Assembly: GCA_021792935.1 (NCBI GenBank)
Contig: JAJYTS010000005.1
Location: 1-45,688 of the forward strand
Source: Bacillota bacterium
GTDB lineage: Bacteria; Bacillota; Sulfobacillia; Sulfobacillales; Sulfobacillaceae
Length of the DNA: 45,688 nucleotides
Direction of reading: 5' to 3'
The translations under genes were made by a program, and so were the position numbers. This document shows positions 1-8,286 of this stretch, piece by piece (within the stretch, counting starts at the first letter, position 1; every line of letters begins with the position of its first letter). Under the pieces are notes generated by a model. The model saw only the letters and a list, made by a program, of their open reading frames with translations. It did no database searches and had not been told where the DNA came from.

Positions 1-9
1 TTCCGATCT

Positions 10-235
10 CTGACCATATTGTCCCCAAGCGGTTCGCTTGGCTCATGCATTCGCGCGTGTCAACCCAGCCTATATTACTGCAGATTTAGTCGACGCCGCC
101 AGCTATCCCAATATCTCTAACCAGTATGGGATTACCGGAGTTCCTGCCACCTTCGTTAATGAAAGGCATCAGGTAGTCGGAGCGGTGCCGGAAGGTCGGC
201 TCTGGAAACTAGCTAAGCAAGTTGTCGGGGTGTAA
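10..235 (+). CDS. Thioredoxin-fold protein (PDO / glutaredoxin-like C-terminal unit), 5'-truncated, in-frame TGA at first Cys of CxxC (predicted selenoprotein, UPYC)
   Basis: Frame 2 read through TGA at 11-13: U-PYCPQAVRLAHAFARVNPAYITADLVDAASYPNISNQYGITGVPATFVNE...GAVPEGRLWKLAKQVVGV*. CPYCPQAV and the cis-Pro GVPAT motif fit PDO/thioredoxin folds. The ORF track starts it at an internal TTG (38), inside the conserved helix. Confidence 0.75.
25..41 (+). promoter_or_regulatory. Candidate bacterial SECIS hairpin
   Basis: CCAAGC-GGTTC-GCTTGG, 17 nt, starting 11 nt after TGA (11-13); perfect stem with GGU in the loop, the same spacing and length as the minimal E. coli fdhF SECIS. Confidence 0.55.
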
Positions 236-246
236 GGAGGCCCGCG

Positions 247-522
247 ATGAGTAACACTCGAACGGTGTACTGGTCAGGCCGGGACCTTGAGCATCGCTTG
301 CGGCGGGTAGAAGGACAGATTCGCGGCATCGAGGCTATGGTGGCGCGTACGGAAACCTGCAAGGACATTTTGACTCAACTAGCCGCCATTCAAGGAGCTC
401 TGGCAAAAATCGTTAAGCTGGTCGAGGCTTGCCAGGTGGCGGAGGAACTGGTCGGAGAGAGAGAGGTCAGTGGCGCGGAGCTTGACCGGGTTCACAACGC
501 CATCCGCCGCGCGATTCGTTAG
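247..522 (+). CDS. CsoR/FrmR/CstR-family (DUF156) metal- or persulfide-sensitive repressor
   Basis: LEHRLRRVEGQIRGIEAMVARTETCKDILTQLAAIQGALAKIVKLV matches the DUF156 helical core. Confidence 0.85.
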   Translation: MSNTRTVYWSGRDLEHRLRRVEGQIRGIEAMVARTETCKDILTQLAAIQGALAKIVKLVEACQVAEELVGEREVSGAELDRVHNAIRRAIR

Positions 523-544: not shown

Positions 545-781
545 ATGGTCACTATTTATACCACCCAGACTTGACCGCATTGCCGGACCGCGAAGCGCTA
601 CATGAAGGAACGGGGCATTCCCTTTCATGAGGTGGATGTTGCCAAGTCGGAATCCAATCTCAATGCGCTGAAGCGGAAATCCGGACAAACCGGCGTGCCG
701 GTGATTGATGTGAACGGAACCATTGTCGTGGGATTTAACCGCCCTAAGTTAGACCGAGCTTTAGGAATTCGGTCTGTTTGA
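545..781 (+). CDS. Glutaredoxin-like (NrdH/YruB type) protein with in-frame TGA at the catalytic Cys (predicted selenoprotein, 78 aa, U10-P-H-C13)
   Basis: AAGGAGG SD, ATG at 545, then MVTIYTTQT-TGA-PHCRTAKRYMKERGIPFHEVDVAKSESNLNALKRKSGQTGVPVIDVNGTIVVGFNRPKLDRALGIRSV*. All glutaredoxin motifs are intact apart from TGA for Cys. Confidence 0.88.
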
Positions 782-804: not shown

Positions 805-1203
805 ATGAGCGAATTGATGTATCAGGTATCCACCCAAAAGTCGGTAGATGAAGCGGTCGATGCCGTGGGGCAATTGCTGAAAAAATATCAGTTCGGTGTC
901 CTTTGGGACCTGGACATTAATGAGAAACTGACTGAAAAAGGATTGGATCCTGAACCCGCGTTTCGTATTCTAGAAGTTTGCAGCGCCCCCCGGGCAAAAA
1001 AAGCGCTCAGCACCAATCAGATAGCAGGCTACTTTTTGCCCTGCAAGGTGCTTGTCTATCAGGATCGACAATCCGGCAAGACCCATATTGGATATGCCAA
1101 ACCGGATGAGCTGATAGAGCTTCTTGGCGATGATCGCTTGAATGAACTGGCCGTGGAGGTCAATCAATTGCTGAAGCAAGCCGTTGATGAAGCGGCTCAA
1201 TAA
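805..1203 (+). CDS. DUF302 domain protein
   Basis: MSELMYQVSTQKSVDEAVDAVGQLLKKYQFGVLWDLDINEKLTEKGLD...RILEVCSAPRAKKAL...FLPCKVLVYQD; typical DUF302. GGAGTG SD precedes ATG at 805. Confidence 0.85.
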   Translation: MSELMYQVSTQKSVDEAVDAVGQLLKKYQFGVLWDLDINEKLTEKGLDPEPAFRILEVCSAPRAKKALSTNQIAGYFLPCKVLVYQDRQSGKTHIGYAKPDELIELLGDDRLNELAVEVNQLLKQAVDEAAQ

Positions 1204-2577: not shown

Positions 2578-3201
2578 TTAAATCAACCCCTGGCGGTAGG
2601 CAATCACAGCGGCTTCAACCCTGTTTTTGGCATGGAGCTGCTCTATCATCCGGGTGATGTGCACCTTTACCGTGTTTTCAGAGAAGTGCAGGGTCGCGCC
2701 AATTTCGCGATTGGTCCATCCTTGGGCGATAAACGACAGTATTTGCGCATCCACAGGCACCAAATGAACGCGACCGGGGCATCCTTCACGAAGCCAGCCA
2801 AGTACCTGCGAGGCCGCTCTTGGATCAAGCACCGCGCCCCCGGCTAGGATGCGGCGGATACTTTGAATCAGATCAGCCGGGCCTATATCCTTTATGATGT
2901 ACCCGCGCGCCCCATTTGCCAGCGCCGCGCCAAGAGGCTCTTCATCCGTGTAGCTGGTGAGAATAATGCACGCGGTGGTTAGTCCATGGGAAGTGATGAG
3001 TTGGCAGAGCGCCGGGCCCTGGATTCCTCCCATGCGCACGTCAATCAAAGCCACGTCTGGTTTAAGCGTCTGTACCAGTTCCCATGCCTCGATGCCATCG
3101 CCCGCTTCTCCAACCACCACGAAATCCGGGTCTTCGCACAGAACTTCGCGCACGCCTCGCCGCGTGAGCTCGTGGTCGTCCGCCAATAACACCCGAATCA
3201 T
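2578..3201 (-). CDS. NarL/LuxR-family response regulator
   Basis: MIRVLLADDHELTRRGVREVLCEDPDFVVVGEAGDGIEAW...ALIDVRMGG... with a C-terminal LuxR HTH (FIAQGWTNREIGATLHFSENTVKVHITRMIEQL). Confidence 0.95.
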   Translation of the reverse strand: MIRVLLADDHELTRRGVREVLCEDPDFVVVGEAGDGIEAWELVQTLKPDVALIDVRMGGIQGPALCQLITSHGLTTACIILTSYTDEEPLGAALANGARGYIIKDIGPADLIQSIRRILAGGAVLDPRAASQVLGWLREGCPGRVHLVPVDAQILSFIAQGWTNREIGATLHFSENTVKVHITRMIEQLHAKNRVEAAVIAYRQGLI

Positions 3202-4337
3202 GGGGCGGACGGGTAGGGAATGCGCGCCCTCACCGTAATTCCCCCTTCGTCATTGGCAAGCACTTGAAGTGAGCCAAAATTTCTCTCGATGAGCGATTTT
3301 AAGAAACGAAGTCCGTATCCTTGTTGACGGGGCATGCCGCGGTTAAATCCGACTCCCGCGTCGTGAACCGCCACGGCGACCGCGTCGGGATCCAATATGA
3401 GAGATACCGTGGCACTTGGGCTGTGGCTATGCTTGCGAATATTATTAAGAGCTTCTTGCACGACCTTGACCAGCGCCGCGTTAATCGCTCCCGTCAACTT
3501 GGTGTCGTCGCCGTGAATGAGTAGCTGGGTGGAGATGCCGCTAGCCTTTTCAAATTCCTCGGCCATATCTTGTAGCGTGGCGGAAATTCGCTGAGGGCGG
3601 GCAGGAGAGTGGGACAGCGAATCGATGGCGGATCGGACATTTTTAAGGCTGGCTGTCGCTAGCTGGTGTATTTGCTGAAGATGTTGGGCTTCTATCTCCG
3701 CCAAGGGCCCCAACCCCTCGTGCAGCCGTTCGATTTCCAGTTTCAGCAGGAATAAATTCTGGGCAACCAACGCATGCAACGTCTGGCTAATGCGTTCGCG
3801 TTCCTCAAATATTATCTGCCGCGCCCGTTGGTCAGGGATTCGCACGGTTTGGACCGCCCAGGCAACCCGGTCGGCCAGTGTTTCCAGCAATCTTTGCTGA
3901 TGAAGGGTGAACGGGTGGGTTCCGGGTCGGTTTATGACCACTATGCGACCGAGAGTGCCTGTTGCCGCAATAAGAGGGGCTGCCGCGACCGGCCACGCCA
4001 CGCCCGGTAATCCATGGGGCGGGTTGAGATGGACCGATTGCCCGGTTGCATGAAGGAGTTGAAAAACGGGATGATTTCGTGGTGCACAAGAGGTGGCCCC
4101 TTGGCCGGACACTTTGACGCGGTTCATCCCGGGGAGGTCAGCCGCTTCATCGCTAAGAATAACGGCGGCGATTTTTCCCTTGAGAAGTCTTCTCGCGGCA
4201 TCCGCCCCGGTTTGCAAGAGCCCACCCAAATCCGCGTTCGCGGCTAGACTCTGATAAATCGTTCGCAGTATTTTCCATTCACGAAAGCCGGGGGCCCGAG
4301 CAATGGAGAGGTGCCGACGCTTAAACCGCGCTTCCAT
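3198..4337 (-). CDS. GAF-domain sensor histidine kinase (HisKA_3/NarX-DegS type)
   Basis: GAF-like N-terminus, ERERISQTLHALVAQNLFLLKLEIERL dimerisation motif, ATPase motifs VVQEALNNIRKHSHS and VAVHDAGVGF. The ORF track starts at 4454; MEARFKRRHLS at about 4337 is the more likely start. Confidence 0.88.
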   Translation of the reverse strand: MEARFKRRHLSIARAPGFREWKILRTIYQSLAANADLGGLLQTGADAARRLLKGKIAAVILSDEAADLPGMNRVKVSGQGATSCAPRNHPVFQLLHATGQSVHLNPPHGLPGVAWPVAAAPLIAATGTLGRIVVINRPGTHPFTLHQQRLLETLADRVAWAVQTVRIPDQRARQIIFEERERISQTLHALVAQNLFLLKLEIERLHEGLGPLAEIEAQHLQQIHQLATASLKNVRSAIDSLSHSPARPQRISATLQDMAEEFEKASGISTQLLIHGDDTKLTGAINAALVKVVQEALNNIRKHSHSPSATVSLILDPDAVAVAVHDAGVGFNRGMPRQQGYGLRFLKSLIERNFGSLQVLANDEGGITVRARIPYPSAP

Positions 4338-4524
4338 AAACCACCTTCTCTGTATTGAGGTTCCACTAACGTTATGATAGCACTTAATATCCATTTTTAG
4401 GAAAAAGTACCGCAAATGATGGAAATGCGTACCCGGTTTGGTATCGCCGACCACTGTGGGATTGGAGCATGGTGAAACGGGGGAATTGGTAAGTGCCAGG
4501 AAAAATTATCTGGGAGGCGAGACT

Positions 4525-5412
4525 GTGTTTCCAGAGGCATTCGCGTATTATGCGGCCCACACTTTGGATGAAGCCCTAGACTACGTTGATCAGTATGGAT
4601 ATGACGCAAAGATTTTGGCCGGTGGGCAAAGTTTGCTCCCGTTAATGAAACTAAGGCTGGCCGCTCCGGCGGTGCTCATCGATATTAATGCCGTTGCCGA
4701 ATTAACCGGCGTGACGGAGACCGACGGGCAATTGCATTTGGGTGCCTTAACTCGCCATTCCACGATGGAATTTGGCTGTTGGCCTCAACACCCCTTAGTT
4801 GCCGAGGCAGCCCAGCAGATTGCCGACCCTATTGTGCGCAATCGCGGGACCGTGGCGGGTTCCCTTGCCCATGCGGACCCGGCGGCGGATTGGGGGGCGG
4901 TGTTGTTGGCCTTGAACGCCCGTGTGGAGGTGCGGGACAAGCACCAAAGTCGCGCGATGCCCATGCGGGAGTTCTTCATTGATACTTTTACCACCGCATT
5001 GCAGCCCACGGAAATCATCACCCGGGTGGAAATTCCCGCTCCGCCCGCTTTTGGTTATGTGGGCGGCCACTATTACAAGTTGGAGCGCAAAGTGGGTGAT
5101 TTTGCCGTGGTGGGGGTGGCGGTAACGGCCACGCTAGATCAGGGCGGGCGAGTGCTAAGTGCTGGAATTGGTCTATCAGCGGTGGGGACGACCTCTCTTA
5201 AGGCGACGGGCGCCGAGGAAATATTAGTGGGGCAGCGGCTTACACCTGAACTAATTAGTGAGGCGGCCCAGGTGGCGGCGTCGGAGTCAAGCCCCTTTGG
5301 GGACCGCCGCGGGAGTGAGGAGTACAAGCGGGCTATGGTTCAGGTGTTTGTGGAGCGTGGGCTTTTAGCCATCGCCGAGGGCGGGTCGCGCGTCACCGTC
5401 CATTCTGCTTAG
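4525..5412 (+). CDS. coxM: Aerobic CO dehydrogenase medium (FAD) subunit
   Basis: GTG at 4525 with GGGAGG SD; VFPEAFAYYAAHTLDEAL...AGGQSLLPLMKLRLAAP...RNRGTVAGSLAHADPAAD. Confidence 0.92.
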   Translation: MFPEAFAYYAAHTLDEALDYVDQYGYDAKILAGGQSLLPLMKLRLAAPAVLIDINAVAELTGVTETDGQLHLGALTRHSTMEFGCWPQHPLVAEAAQQIADPIVRNRGTVAGSLAHADPAADWGAVLLALNARVEVRDKHQSRAMPMREFFIDTFTTALQPTEIITRVEIPAPPAFGYVGGHYYKLERKVGDFAVVGVAVTATLDQGGRVLSAGIGLSAVGTTSLKATGAEEILVGQRLTPELISEAAQVAASESSPFGDRRGSEEYKRAMVQVFVERGLLAIAEGGSRVTVHSA

Positions 5413-5430
5413 GGGTTGAAGGGAGGGGCT

Positions 5431-5931
5431 ATGGAAAAGGTGGAATCGCGGGCGGAAGTGCCCGTAACGTTGACAATTAACGGGGAGACGCGGACAGCCT
5501 TGGCGGAATCCCGTACATTGCTGGCATATTTTATTCGTGAGAATCTGGAACTTACCGGGACCCACGTGGGTTGTGACACCACCAGTTGCGGCGCTTGCAC
5601 AGTGTTGGTGGATGGGGTGCCGGTGAAGTCCTGCACAATGTTGGCGGTGCAGGCCGACGGGCATGTGGTAGAGACGGTAGAAGGGCTGGACAAGGATGGG
5701 GTGCTGCATCCCCTGCAGCAGGCCTTTTGGGATAATCATGGACTGCAATGCGGATTTTGCACTCCTGGCATGTTAATGACTTCACTCGCCTTATTGCGGA
5801 AAAACCCCAATGTAACGGAAGACGTGGTGCGTCATGCCATTTCCGGAAATCTCTGCCGCTGCACCGGCTATGTCAATATTGTGAAGTCGGTTATTGAAGC
5901 TGGCCAAAAAATGGCGCTGGAGGAGGTGTAG
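5431..5931 (+). CDS. coxS: Aerobic CO dehydrogenase small (2x[2Fe-2S]) subunit
   Basis: LTINGETRTALAESRTLLAYFIRENLELTGTHVGCDTTSCGACTVLVDG...CGFCTPGMLM...GNLCRCTGYVNIVKSV. ORF opens at 5416, with ATG at 5431. Confidence 0.95.
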   Translation: MEKVESRAEVPVTLTINGETRTALAESRTLLAYFIRENLELTGTHVGCDTTSCGACTVLVDGVPVKSCTMLAVQADGHVVETVEGLDKDGVLHPLQQAFWDNHGLQCGFCTPGMLMTSLALLRKNPNVTEDVVRHAISGNLCRCTGYVNIVKSVIEAGQKMALEEV

Positions 5932-5934
5932 AGG

Positions 5935-8286
5935 ATGGCGCTGGAAGCAACCGAAAAAAGCCCTTTGGGAAAGGCGATTAAACGCAAGGAGGATCCCCGC
6001 CTGATTCGCGGTCAGGGTCGTTATTTGGATGATATTGTCCTTCCGCGGATGTTGTATATGGCCTTGGTAAGAAGTCCCTACGCCCACGCACGTATTAAGT
6101 CTATTCGCCTGGACGAGGCGCGCCGGGTTCCGGGAGTCAAAGCCATCATTACCGGGGAGGATTTAGCGGCAGCCAATCTCGCCTGGATGCCCACCTTGGC
6201 TGGTGACAAGCAGATGGTTCTGGCTGCCGGCAAAGTGTTGTTTCAGTATCAAGAAGTGGCGGCGGTCGTCGCCGAAACTCGGGCGGCGGCGGAAGACGGC
6301 GCGCAGTGTGTGGAAGTCGACTATGAGCCCCTGCAAGTCGTGGTGGACCCCTTCTTCGCCCTATCTTCCGAGGCACCGGTGCTGCGGGAAGATCGGGAGC
6401 AGAAAGATAATCATATTTGGCATTGGGCAGTGGGCGATCAAGGGGCTGCTGATGAGGCCTTGGCGAAATCCCCGGTGCGGGTCAAAGAAAAGATTCGTAT
6501 GCCGCGGGTTCACCCTGCCCCTATCGAGCCGTGCGGCTGCGTTGCCGATTATCAAAAGTCTACAGGAAAGCTGACTTGGTACGTAACGTCCCAGGCCCCC
6601 CATGCCCACCGCACCGTACTTTCCCTGGTTTCGGGGCTTCCTGAGCATCTCATTCATGTGATTTCCCCTGATGTGGGGGGAGGATTTGGCAATAAGGTCC
6701 CCGTGTATCCCGGATACGTGTGCGCGGTGGTTTTATCGTTGCAATTAGGACGACCCGTGAAGTGGGTGGAATCCCGCTCGGAGAATATTGCCACGACTAA
6801 CTTTGCCCGTGACTATCATATGACCGCTGAAATAGGGGCTACCGAAGAAGGAATTGTCACCGCGCTTAAGGTTTCAACCGTTGCCGATCATGGCGCCTTT
6901 GACGCGGCTGCCGACCCAACCCGATTCCCGGCAGGGCTCTTCAGCATTGTGACGGGGTCATATCGGTTTCCCCAAGCGTTTGCGGAAGTGGATGGGGTTT
7001 ACACCAATAAGGCGCCGGGCGGCGTCGCGTACCGTTGCTCGTTTCGGGTAACGGAGGCGTCTTTTCTCATTGAGCGCACCATGCAAAGCTTAGCCCTCAA
7101 GTTAGGCCTTGATCCGGTCGAACTGCGCCGCCGCAACTTTATCCGCCCCGAGGAATTCCCTTATAATTCGCCATTGGGGTGGACCTACGACAGCGGACAG
7201 TATGAAAAGACTTTACAAAAGGCTATGTCCTTAATCGATTACGATGGCTTGCGCGCCGAACAAGCACAGCGGCGGGAGCGGGGCGAACTGGTGGGCATTG
7301 GGGTATCCACGTTTACGGAAATTGTGGGCGCCGGGCCCAGCAATACCTTTGATATTCTTGGGATTAAAATGTTTGACAGCTGTGAAATTCGTATCCATCC
7401 TACCGGAAAGGCCATCGCGCGTTTGGGAACCCGCCATCAAGGCCAAGGGCATGAGACCACCTTCGCGCAATTGATTGCTCATGAATTAGGACTCTCCGCC
7501 GCCGATATTCTCGTGGAGGAAGGGGATACGGACACGGCCCCTTACGGGTTAGGCACCTATGCCAGCCGCAGCACGCCCACGGCTGGAGGCGCGGCAGCCT
7601 TAGCGGCTCGGCGAATCCGGCAAAAGGCGCAAAAGATTGCCGCGCATCTCCTCGAGATTTCCCCCGATGATACCGAATGGGATGGCATTCATTTTCATGC
7701 CAAGGGGCTGGAGAGCCGCCAGGTGAGCATGGTGGACGTCGCCTTGGCCGCCTACACAAACTTGCCCGAGGGTATGGAGCCAGGGCTGGAAGCGACCTTT
7801 TATTACGATCCCCCTAATTTGACCTTTCCCAATGGCGCTTATATTGCTGTGGTGTCAATTGATCGAGGAACGGGCCAAGTGAAAGTGGAACGGTTTGTGG
7901 CGGTTGACGATTGCGGCACCGTTATTAATCCCATGGTGGTGGAAGGGCAAGTGCATGGGGGGCTTACCGAAGGTTTTGGCATTGCGTTCATGCAGGAGAT
8001 AGCCTTCGATGAGGACGGAAATTGTCTGGCCCCTAATTTTATGGAGTATCTAGTCCCTACCGCCGTGGAAACCCCGAACTGGGAAACGGGACGGACCGAA
8101 ACCCCGTCGCCGCATCACCCCATTGGCGCCAAGGGGGTGGGAGAATCGCCCAATGTGGGGTCGCCGGCCGCCTTTGTCAATGCGGTTGTGGACGCGTTGT
8201 CGCCCCATGGAGTGACCAACGTGGAAATCCCCATGTTTCCCTGGAAGATTTGGGAGATACTGTCTCAGCACCATTTGGCCCGGTAG
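5935..8286 (+). CDS. coxL: Aerobic CO dehydrogenase large (Mo-Cu) subunit, form I
   Basis: 783 aa molybdopterin subunit containing GGVAYRCSFRVTEA, i.e. the form I active-site loop AYxCSFR (7027-7047). Confidence 0.95.
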   Translation: MALEATEKSPLGKAIKRKEDPRLIRGQGRYLDDIVLPRMLYMALVRSPYAHARIKSIRLDEARRVPGVKAIITGEDLAAANLAWMPTLAGDKQMVLAAGKVLFQYQEVAAVVAETRAAAEDGAQCVEVDYEPLQVVVDPFFALSSEAPVLREDREQKDNHIWHWAVGDQGAADEALAKSPVRVKEKIRMPRVHPAPIEPCGCVADYQKSTGKLTWYVTSQAPHAHRTVLSLVSGLPEHLIHVISPDVGGGFGNKVPVYPGYVCAVVLSLQLGRPVKWVESRSENIATTNFARDYHMTAEIGATEEGIVTALKVSTVADHGAFDAAADPTRFPAGLFSIVTGSYRFPQAFAEVDGVYTNKAPGGVAYRCSFRVTEASFLIERTMQSLALKLGLDPVELRRRNFIRPEEFPYNSPLGWTYDSGQYEKTLQKAMSLIDYDGLRAEQAQRRERGELVGIGVSTFTEIVGAGPSNTFDILGIKMFDSCEIRIHPTGKAIARLGTRHQGQGHETTFAQLIAHELGLSAADILVEEGDTDTAPYGLGTYASRSTPTAGGAAALAARRIRQKAQKIAAHLLEISPDDTEWDGIHFHAKGLESRQVSMVDVALAAYTNLPEGMEPGLEATFYYDPPNLTFPNGAYIAVVSIDRGTGQVKVERFVAVDDCGTVINPMVVEGQVHGGLTEGFGIAFMQEIAFDEDGNCLAPNFMEYLVPTAVETPNWETGRTETPSPHHPIGAKGVGESPNVGSPAAFVNAVVDALSPHGVTNVEIPMFPWKIWEILSQHHLAR

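Follow-up and report, generated by a model that had tools for sequence, protein, structure and literature searches.

The first gene of the 45,688-nucleotide stretch of DNA analysed here (the window, which is the whole of contig C118 in a 60% complete, 2.02-Mb MAG of 141 contigs) is the truncated end of a protein disulfide oxidoreductase (PDO) gene, and comparison with its relatives indicates that its in-frame UGA at positions 11-13 is almost certainly read as selenocysteine (Sec) with a SECIS hairpin. The gene is a further member of the known Sec-PDO family, in a Sulfobacillaceae genome. The original prediction of a Sec-containing PDO is therefore supported in substance, although it mentioned neither the adapter bases at positions 1-9 nor that the family is already known. 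The features at the start of the contig are as follows:

1-9, forward strand: non-genomic Illumina adapter remnant, TTCCGATCT (9-mer present at contig starts; residues at 2-10 unlike the TPT of relatives)
10-235, forward strand: 3' part of the Sec-containing PDO gene, C-terminal thioredoxin unit with U-P-Y-C (TIGR02187.2 and relatives; stop TAA 233-235)
11-13, forward strand: predicted Sec codon TGA, aligned with the active-site Cys of homologs (47 other loci share TGA; the 11 Cys homologs have TGC/TGT)
25-41, forward strand: predicted bacterial SECIS hairpin, CCAAGC (25-30), GGTTC (31-35), GCTTGG (36-41) (pairing statistics, fold, bSECIS model)

Reading frame and contig edge

The TGA at 11-13 is followed by CCA TAT TGT CCC (U-P-Y-C-P), and the frame stays open to the TAA at 233-235; frame and family match agree with the U-P-Y-C-P motif and the PDO-like thioredoxin unit first proposed. 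The ORF listing begins at TTG 38 (38-235), past the CxxC position, and, as had been pointed out, this start drops the catalytic motif. Short ORFs called from downstream starts of this kind can mask truncated selenoproteins at contig edges. The window fragment scored 77 bits against TIGR02187.2 (profile positions 140-204 of 209), which was also the best family for a full-length homolog from the same genus (PDO_seleno_TRX, 172 bits, E = 8.9e-51, just below the 185-bit equivalog cut-off). In a protein search of 61 genomes, most of those from the same genus, family or order proved to have this frame, containing a single TGA, at the identical codon.

An unrelated frame upstream of the TGA was looked for, and same-genus relatives were found to carry the same frame on into a complete two-unit PDO of ~210 amino acids. 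The 5' half of the present copy was not found in the MAG, where a search for the missing 5' two thirds (the N-terminal ~138 codons) returned only Cys paralogs on contigs C35 and C42. An alignment of 15 homologs had Pyrococcus PDO (1a8l) as its best PDB match over the full length (E = 1.5e-66). Of the two thioredoxin units, the window shows the C-terminal one (UPYC), and the N-terminal one is seen in relatives only; this first unit is without CxxC in the Sulfobacillus relatives and keeps it in some other phyla (L052, CEFC; L090, CQFC).

The 9-mer TTCCGATCT at bases 1-9 matches the 3'-terminal bases of the standard Illumina adapter. The MAG contains 12 copies of it, two of which open a contig at its very first base (C42 and C118), where ~0.001 such starts would be expected for 141 contigs; the longer adapter string CTCTTCCGATCT was absent from the MAG. 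Codons at 2-10 read S-D-L, and T-P-T precedes U in 27 of 27 TGA relatives inspected. Because bases 1-9 match the adapter and the relatives have TPT, the first three residues (SDL) are foreign to the gene, and by this comparison the first gene base on the contig is base 10, the third position of the codon before the TGA. The adapter left at two contig starts also indicates that the assembly was not fully adapter-trimmed.

Selenocysteine codon and SECIS hairpin

We compared the codon at 11-13 across homologs found by protein similarity. In 47 further loci from independent assemblies the same codon is TGA, with a frame that is otherwise open and is conserved on both sides, and 11 Cys homologs carry TGC or TGT at this position. 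The perfect 17-nt hairpin that had been described 11 nt past the TGA was seen at 25-41 (6 bp and a 5-nt loop, separated from the TGA by nucleotides 14-24). Counting both strands, the window has 1,235 TGA triplets, and a single one of them is followed at +11 by six Watson-Crick pairs in the same geometry; with G-U pairs allowed, six triplets are. Positions 14-41 fold at -9.1 kcal/mol (z = -2.87), a value matched by 2 of 200 shuffles. The fold of the whole segment 1-60 is unremarkable (z = -0.93), and the evidence for a SECIS is therefore comparative rather than energetic.

Pairing statistics were based on TGA homologs found by protein similarity, hence unselected for the hairpin. Loci found by the SECIS DNA pattern were excluded because the pattern demands the hairpin letters; public genomes contain 94 stretches that match it exactly (Sulfobacillus and other Bacillota, Rokubacteria, Chloroflexi, Acidobacteria and Zixibacteria). 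The stem is paired at all six positions in 41 of the 44 distinct TGA sequences; the corresponding figures are 1 of 11 for Cys homologs and 7.2% for random synonymous recodings. The two pairs just outside the 17 nt are formed in 0 and 5 of the 44, which limits the paired element to precisely these 17 nt, and in slid registers pairing falls to 15-51%. Compensatory changes on both sides were found at two pairs (0 of 500 shuffles as good), and the window itself holds one such change, its fourth pair being A-U where nearly all others have G-C. Taken together, these comparisons indicate that selection maintains the hairpin only next to a TGA codon. The loop GU is not independent evidence at the RNA level, because a conserved Val codon also fixes this invariant GU.

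The bSECIS model specifies an upper stem of 4-16 bp, a loop of 3-9 nt, a G in the first two loop positions and 16-37 nt from UGA to loop (PMC13188914). The window hairpin falls within it, with 6 bp, a GGUUC loop and a spacing of 17 nt, the loop having the form N-G-U-N-N' with a closing pair. A scan of the window against Rfam gave no family at its cut-off. As a SECIS, hairpin 25-41 would bind SelB and direct Sec insertion.

Selenocysteine machinery in the genome and its relatives

The same MAG encodes SelA (543 bits), SelB (354 bits) and SelD (360 bits), all over cut-off. Its SelD gene (G000:C26:25817-26731) carries one in-frame TGA itself, as do its relatives. The best tRNA-Sec candidate in this MAG (60% complete) reached 43.9 bits, short of the Rfam cut-off of 47; this fits an incomplete genome, because same-genus genomes have tRNA-Sec at 60-75 bits.

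The distribution of codon and machinery among relatives bears on the function of the hairpin. Both genomes of genus g4 carry TGC here, with SelA, SelB and SelD all under cut-off, and genome G050 has a Cys form with no SelB over cut-off. Two others (G025, 96% complete; G030, 63% complete) have a TGA-type PDO match yet no SelB over cut-off, which may reflect assembly gaps or recent loss of the Sec machinery. The joint retention of hairpin and UGA, with TGC in two related genomes that lack the Sec machinery, offers a clean natural test of SECIS function.

Alternative explanations

The contig breaks off at an assembly edge that carries adapter bases, and the ORF listing starts at TTG 38, as might be expected if the TGA were a real stop or a sequencing or assembly error and 38-235 a short separate ORF or pseudogene remnant. 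This is extremely unlikely: 47 loci from independent assemblies conserve both the TGA and the reading frame before and after it, and selection on the hairpin is seen beside TGA alone; for the PDO family, these comparisons already refute it. The same two observations speak against the possibility, raised with the original prediction, that a TGC had been turned into TGA by error. It is also very unlikely that the hairpin is a mere by-product of the conserved protein sequence PYCPRAVRLAH, with no RNA element. The region does encode a strongly conserved protein segment, and Val fixes the loop GU. However, full pairing arises in 7% of synonymous recodings and in a single one of the 11 Cys homologs, which have nearly the same residues, against 41 of 44 TGA forms, and locus L178 keeps all six pairs despite a different sequence and different residues.

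An in-frame UGA does not by itself name the residue, and a changed code or a suppressor could have it read as tryptophan or another amino acid. The chance of this is vanishingly small, given that homologs have Cys here, that Sec genes are present in the same MAG, and that the Sec-less genus g4 uses TGC. We infer that Sec is inserted at UGA 11-13 itself.

Gene neighbourhood and a second probable selenoprotein

The Sec-PDO gene is followed by a gene set that is conserved in part among relatives:

247-522, forward strand: CsoR/RcnR-type repressor, next gene of a probable operon (PF02583; same order in relatives)
545-781, forward strand: second probable selenoprotein, glutaredoxin-like, U-P-H-C, TGA 572-574 (TIGR02196, YruB family, 92.6 bits)
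805-1203, forward strand: gene for a DUF302 protein, last of the conserved set (PF03625)

The glutaredoxin-like gene, two genes downstream of the Sec-PDO, reads MVTIYTTQT-U-PHC, and its ORF listing starts at ATG 602, past the active site. Most relatives' copies also have TGA at codon 572-574, and two have TGC; the gene's hairpin is weak by folding. The same gene order was found in Sulfobacillus harzensis and one other genome, and several further relatives differ in arrangement but still place the glutaredoxin or the repressor within a few kb. No match to positions 1-1300 was found in a plasmid collection.

It is only the neighbouring genes that point to a possible role in reactive-sulfur or metal-thiol stress. 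That the Sec-PDO, the Sec-glutaredoxin, the CsoR-type repressor and the DUF302 protein form one regulated unit for such stress in acidophilic Sulfobacillus is a tentative proposal, and probably not the correct one; if true, it would represent a two-selenoprotein redox relay of Sulfobacillus, which is not described as such in the literature examined.

The repressor has a Cys at the first metal-site position, and its second Cys does not seem to line up with the classical His/Cys positions. CstR-type persulfide sensing was considered for this CsoR-like neighbour, and no claim is made for it because the second Cys looks out of register in the alignment. Further along the contig are a pair of CrcB-type (fluoride channel) genes that overlap in different frames (1711-2501), and a region (2578-8286) in which a two-component pair on the opposite strand (2578-4454) adjoins a three-gene molybdenum hydroxylase set of the CO dehydrogenase / xanthine dehydrogenase type (4438-8286; FAD, 2Fe-2S and Mo-binding subunits).

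Proposed mechanism

In the mechanism that we propose, SelB and Sec-tRNA would decode UGA 11-13 as selenocysteine with the help of the 17-nt SECIS that lies 11 nt beyond it. The product would comprise two thioredoxin-fold units, of which, judging from the Sulfobacillus relatives, the first would have lost its CxxC and the second would bear U-P-Y-C. The selenol(ate) of U would most likely attack disulfides (or sulfenic acids or persulfides), and the resolving Cys three residues past U would then free the reduced substrate. Sequence analysis shows the frame, the conserved TGA, the selected hairpin and the Sec machinery; redox direction and substrate are proposed by analogy with the PDO family.

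Comparison with known systems

The 17-nt upper stem-loop of the Escherichia coli fdhF SECIS lies 11 nt past its UGA and has G-U in the loop. The window hairpin resembles it in size, spacing and loop G-U, whereas its stem sequence differs and has no bulged U. AhpF has an N-terminal domain (PDB 1hyu, 1zyn) that is a related two-unit module (E about 1e-22 to 1e-24), in which only one of the two units is redox-active. In contrast to AhpF, the Sec-PDO is a separate protein, with no attached flavoprotein reductase. The Cys-containing PDO of Pyrococcus furiosus (1a8l) belongs to the same fold family over its whole length, the difference being that Cys stands in its C-terminal active site where the Sulfobacillus relatives have Sec.

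The closest known system is NCBIfam TIGR02187 (PDO_seleno_TRX, e.g. Carboxydothermus ABB15282.1), which likewise has two thioredoxin units, UxxC in the second, and a TGA with a bSECIS; it differs in that the first unit of the Sulfobacillus relatives is without the CxxC kept in some other phyla, and in that the window copy is truncated by the contig end. Sec-containing PDO has been known since 2006 as a 'homolog of AhpF N-terminal domain (Grx-like domain protein)' (PMC1794560; also PMC13188914, 2026), and Sulfobacillus is reported to contain Sec forms of formate dehydrogenase and peroxiredoxin (PMC4378227; PMC7409299). The present gene leaves knowledge of the family unchanged, while adding one well-supported selenoprotein and a probable second one to the aerobic, acidophilic Sulfobacillaceae.
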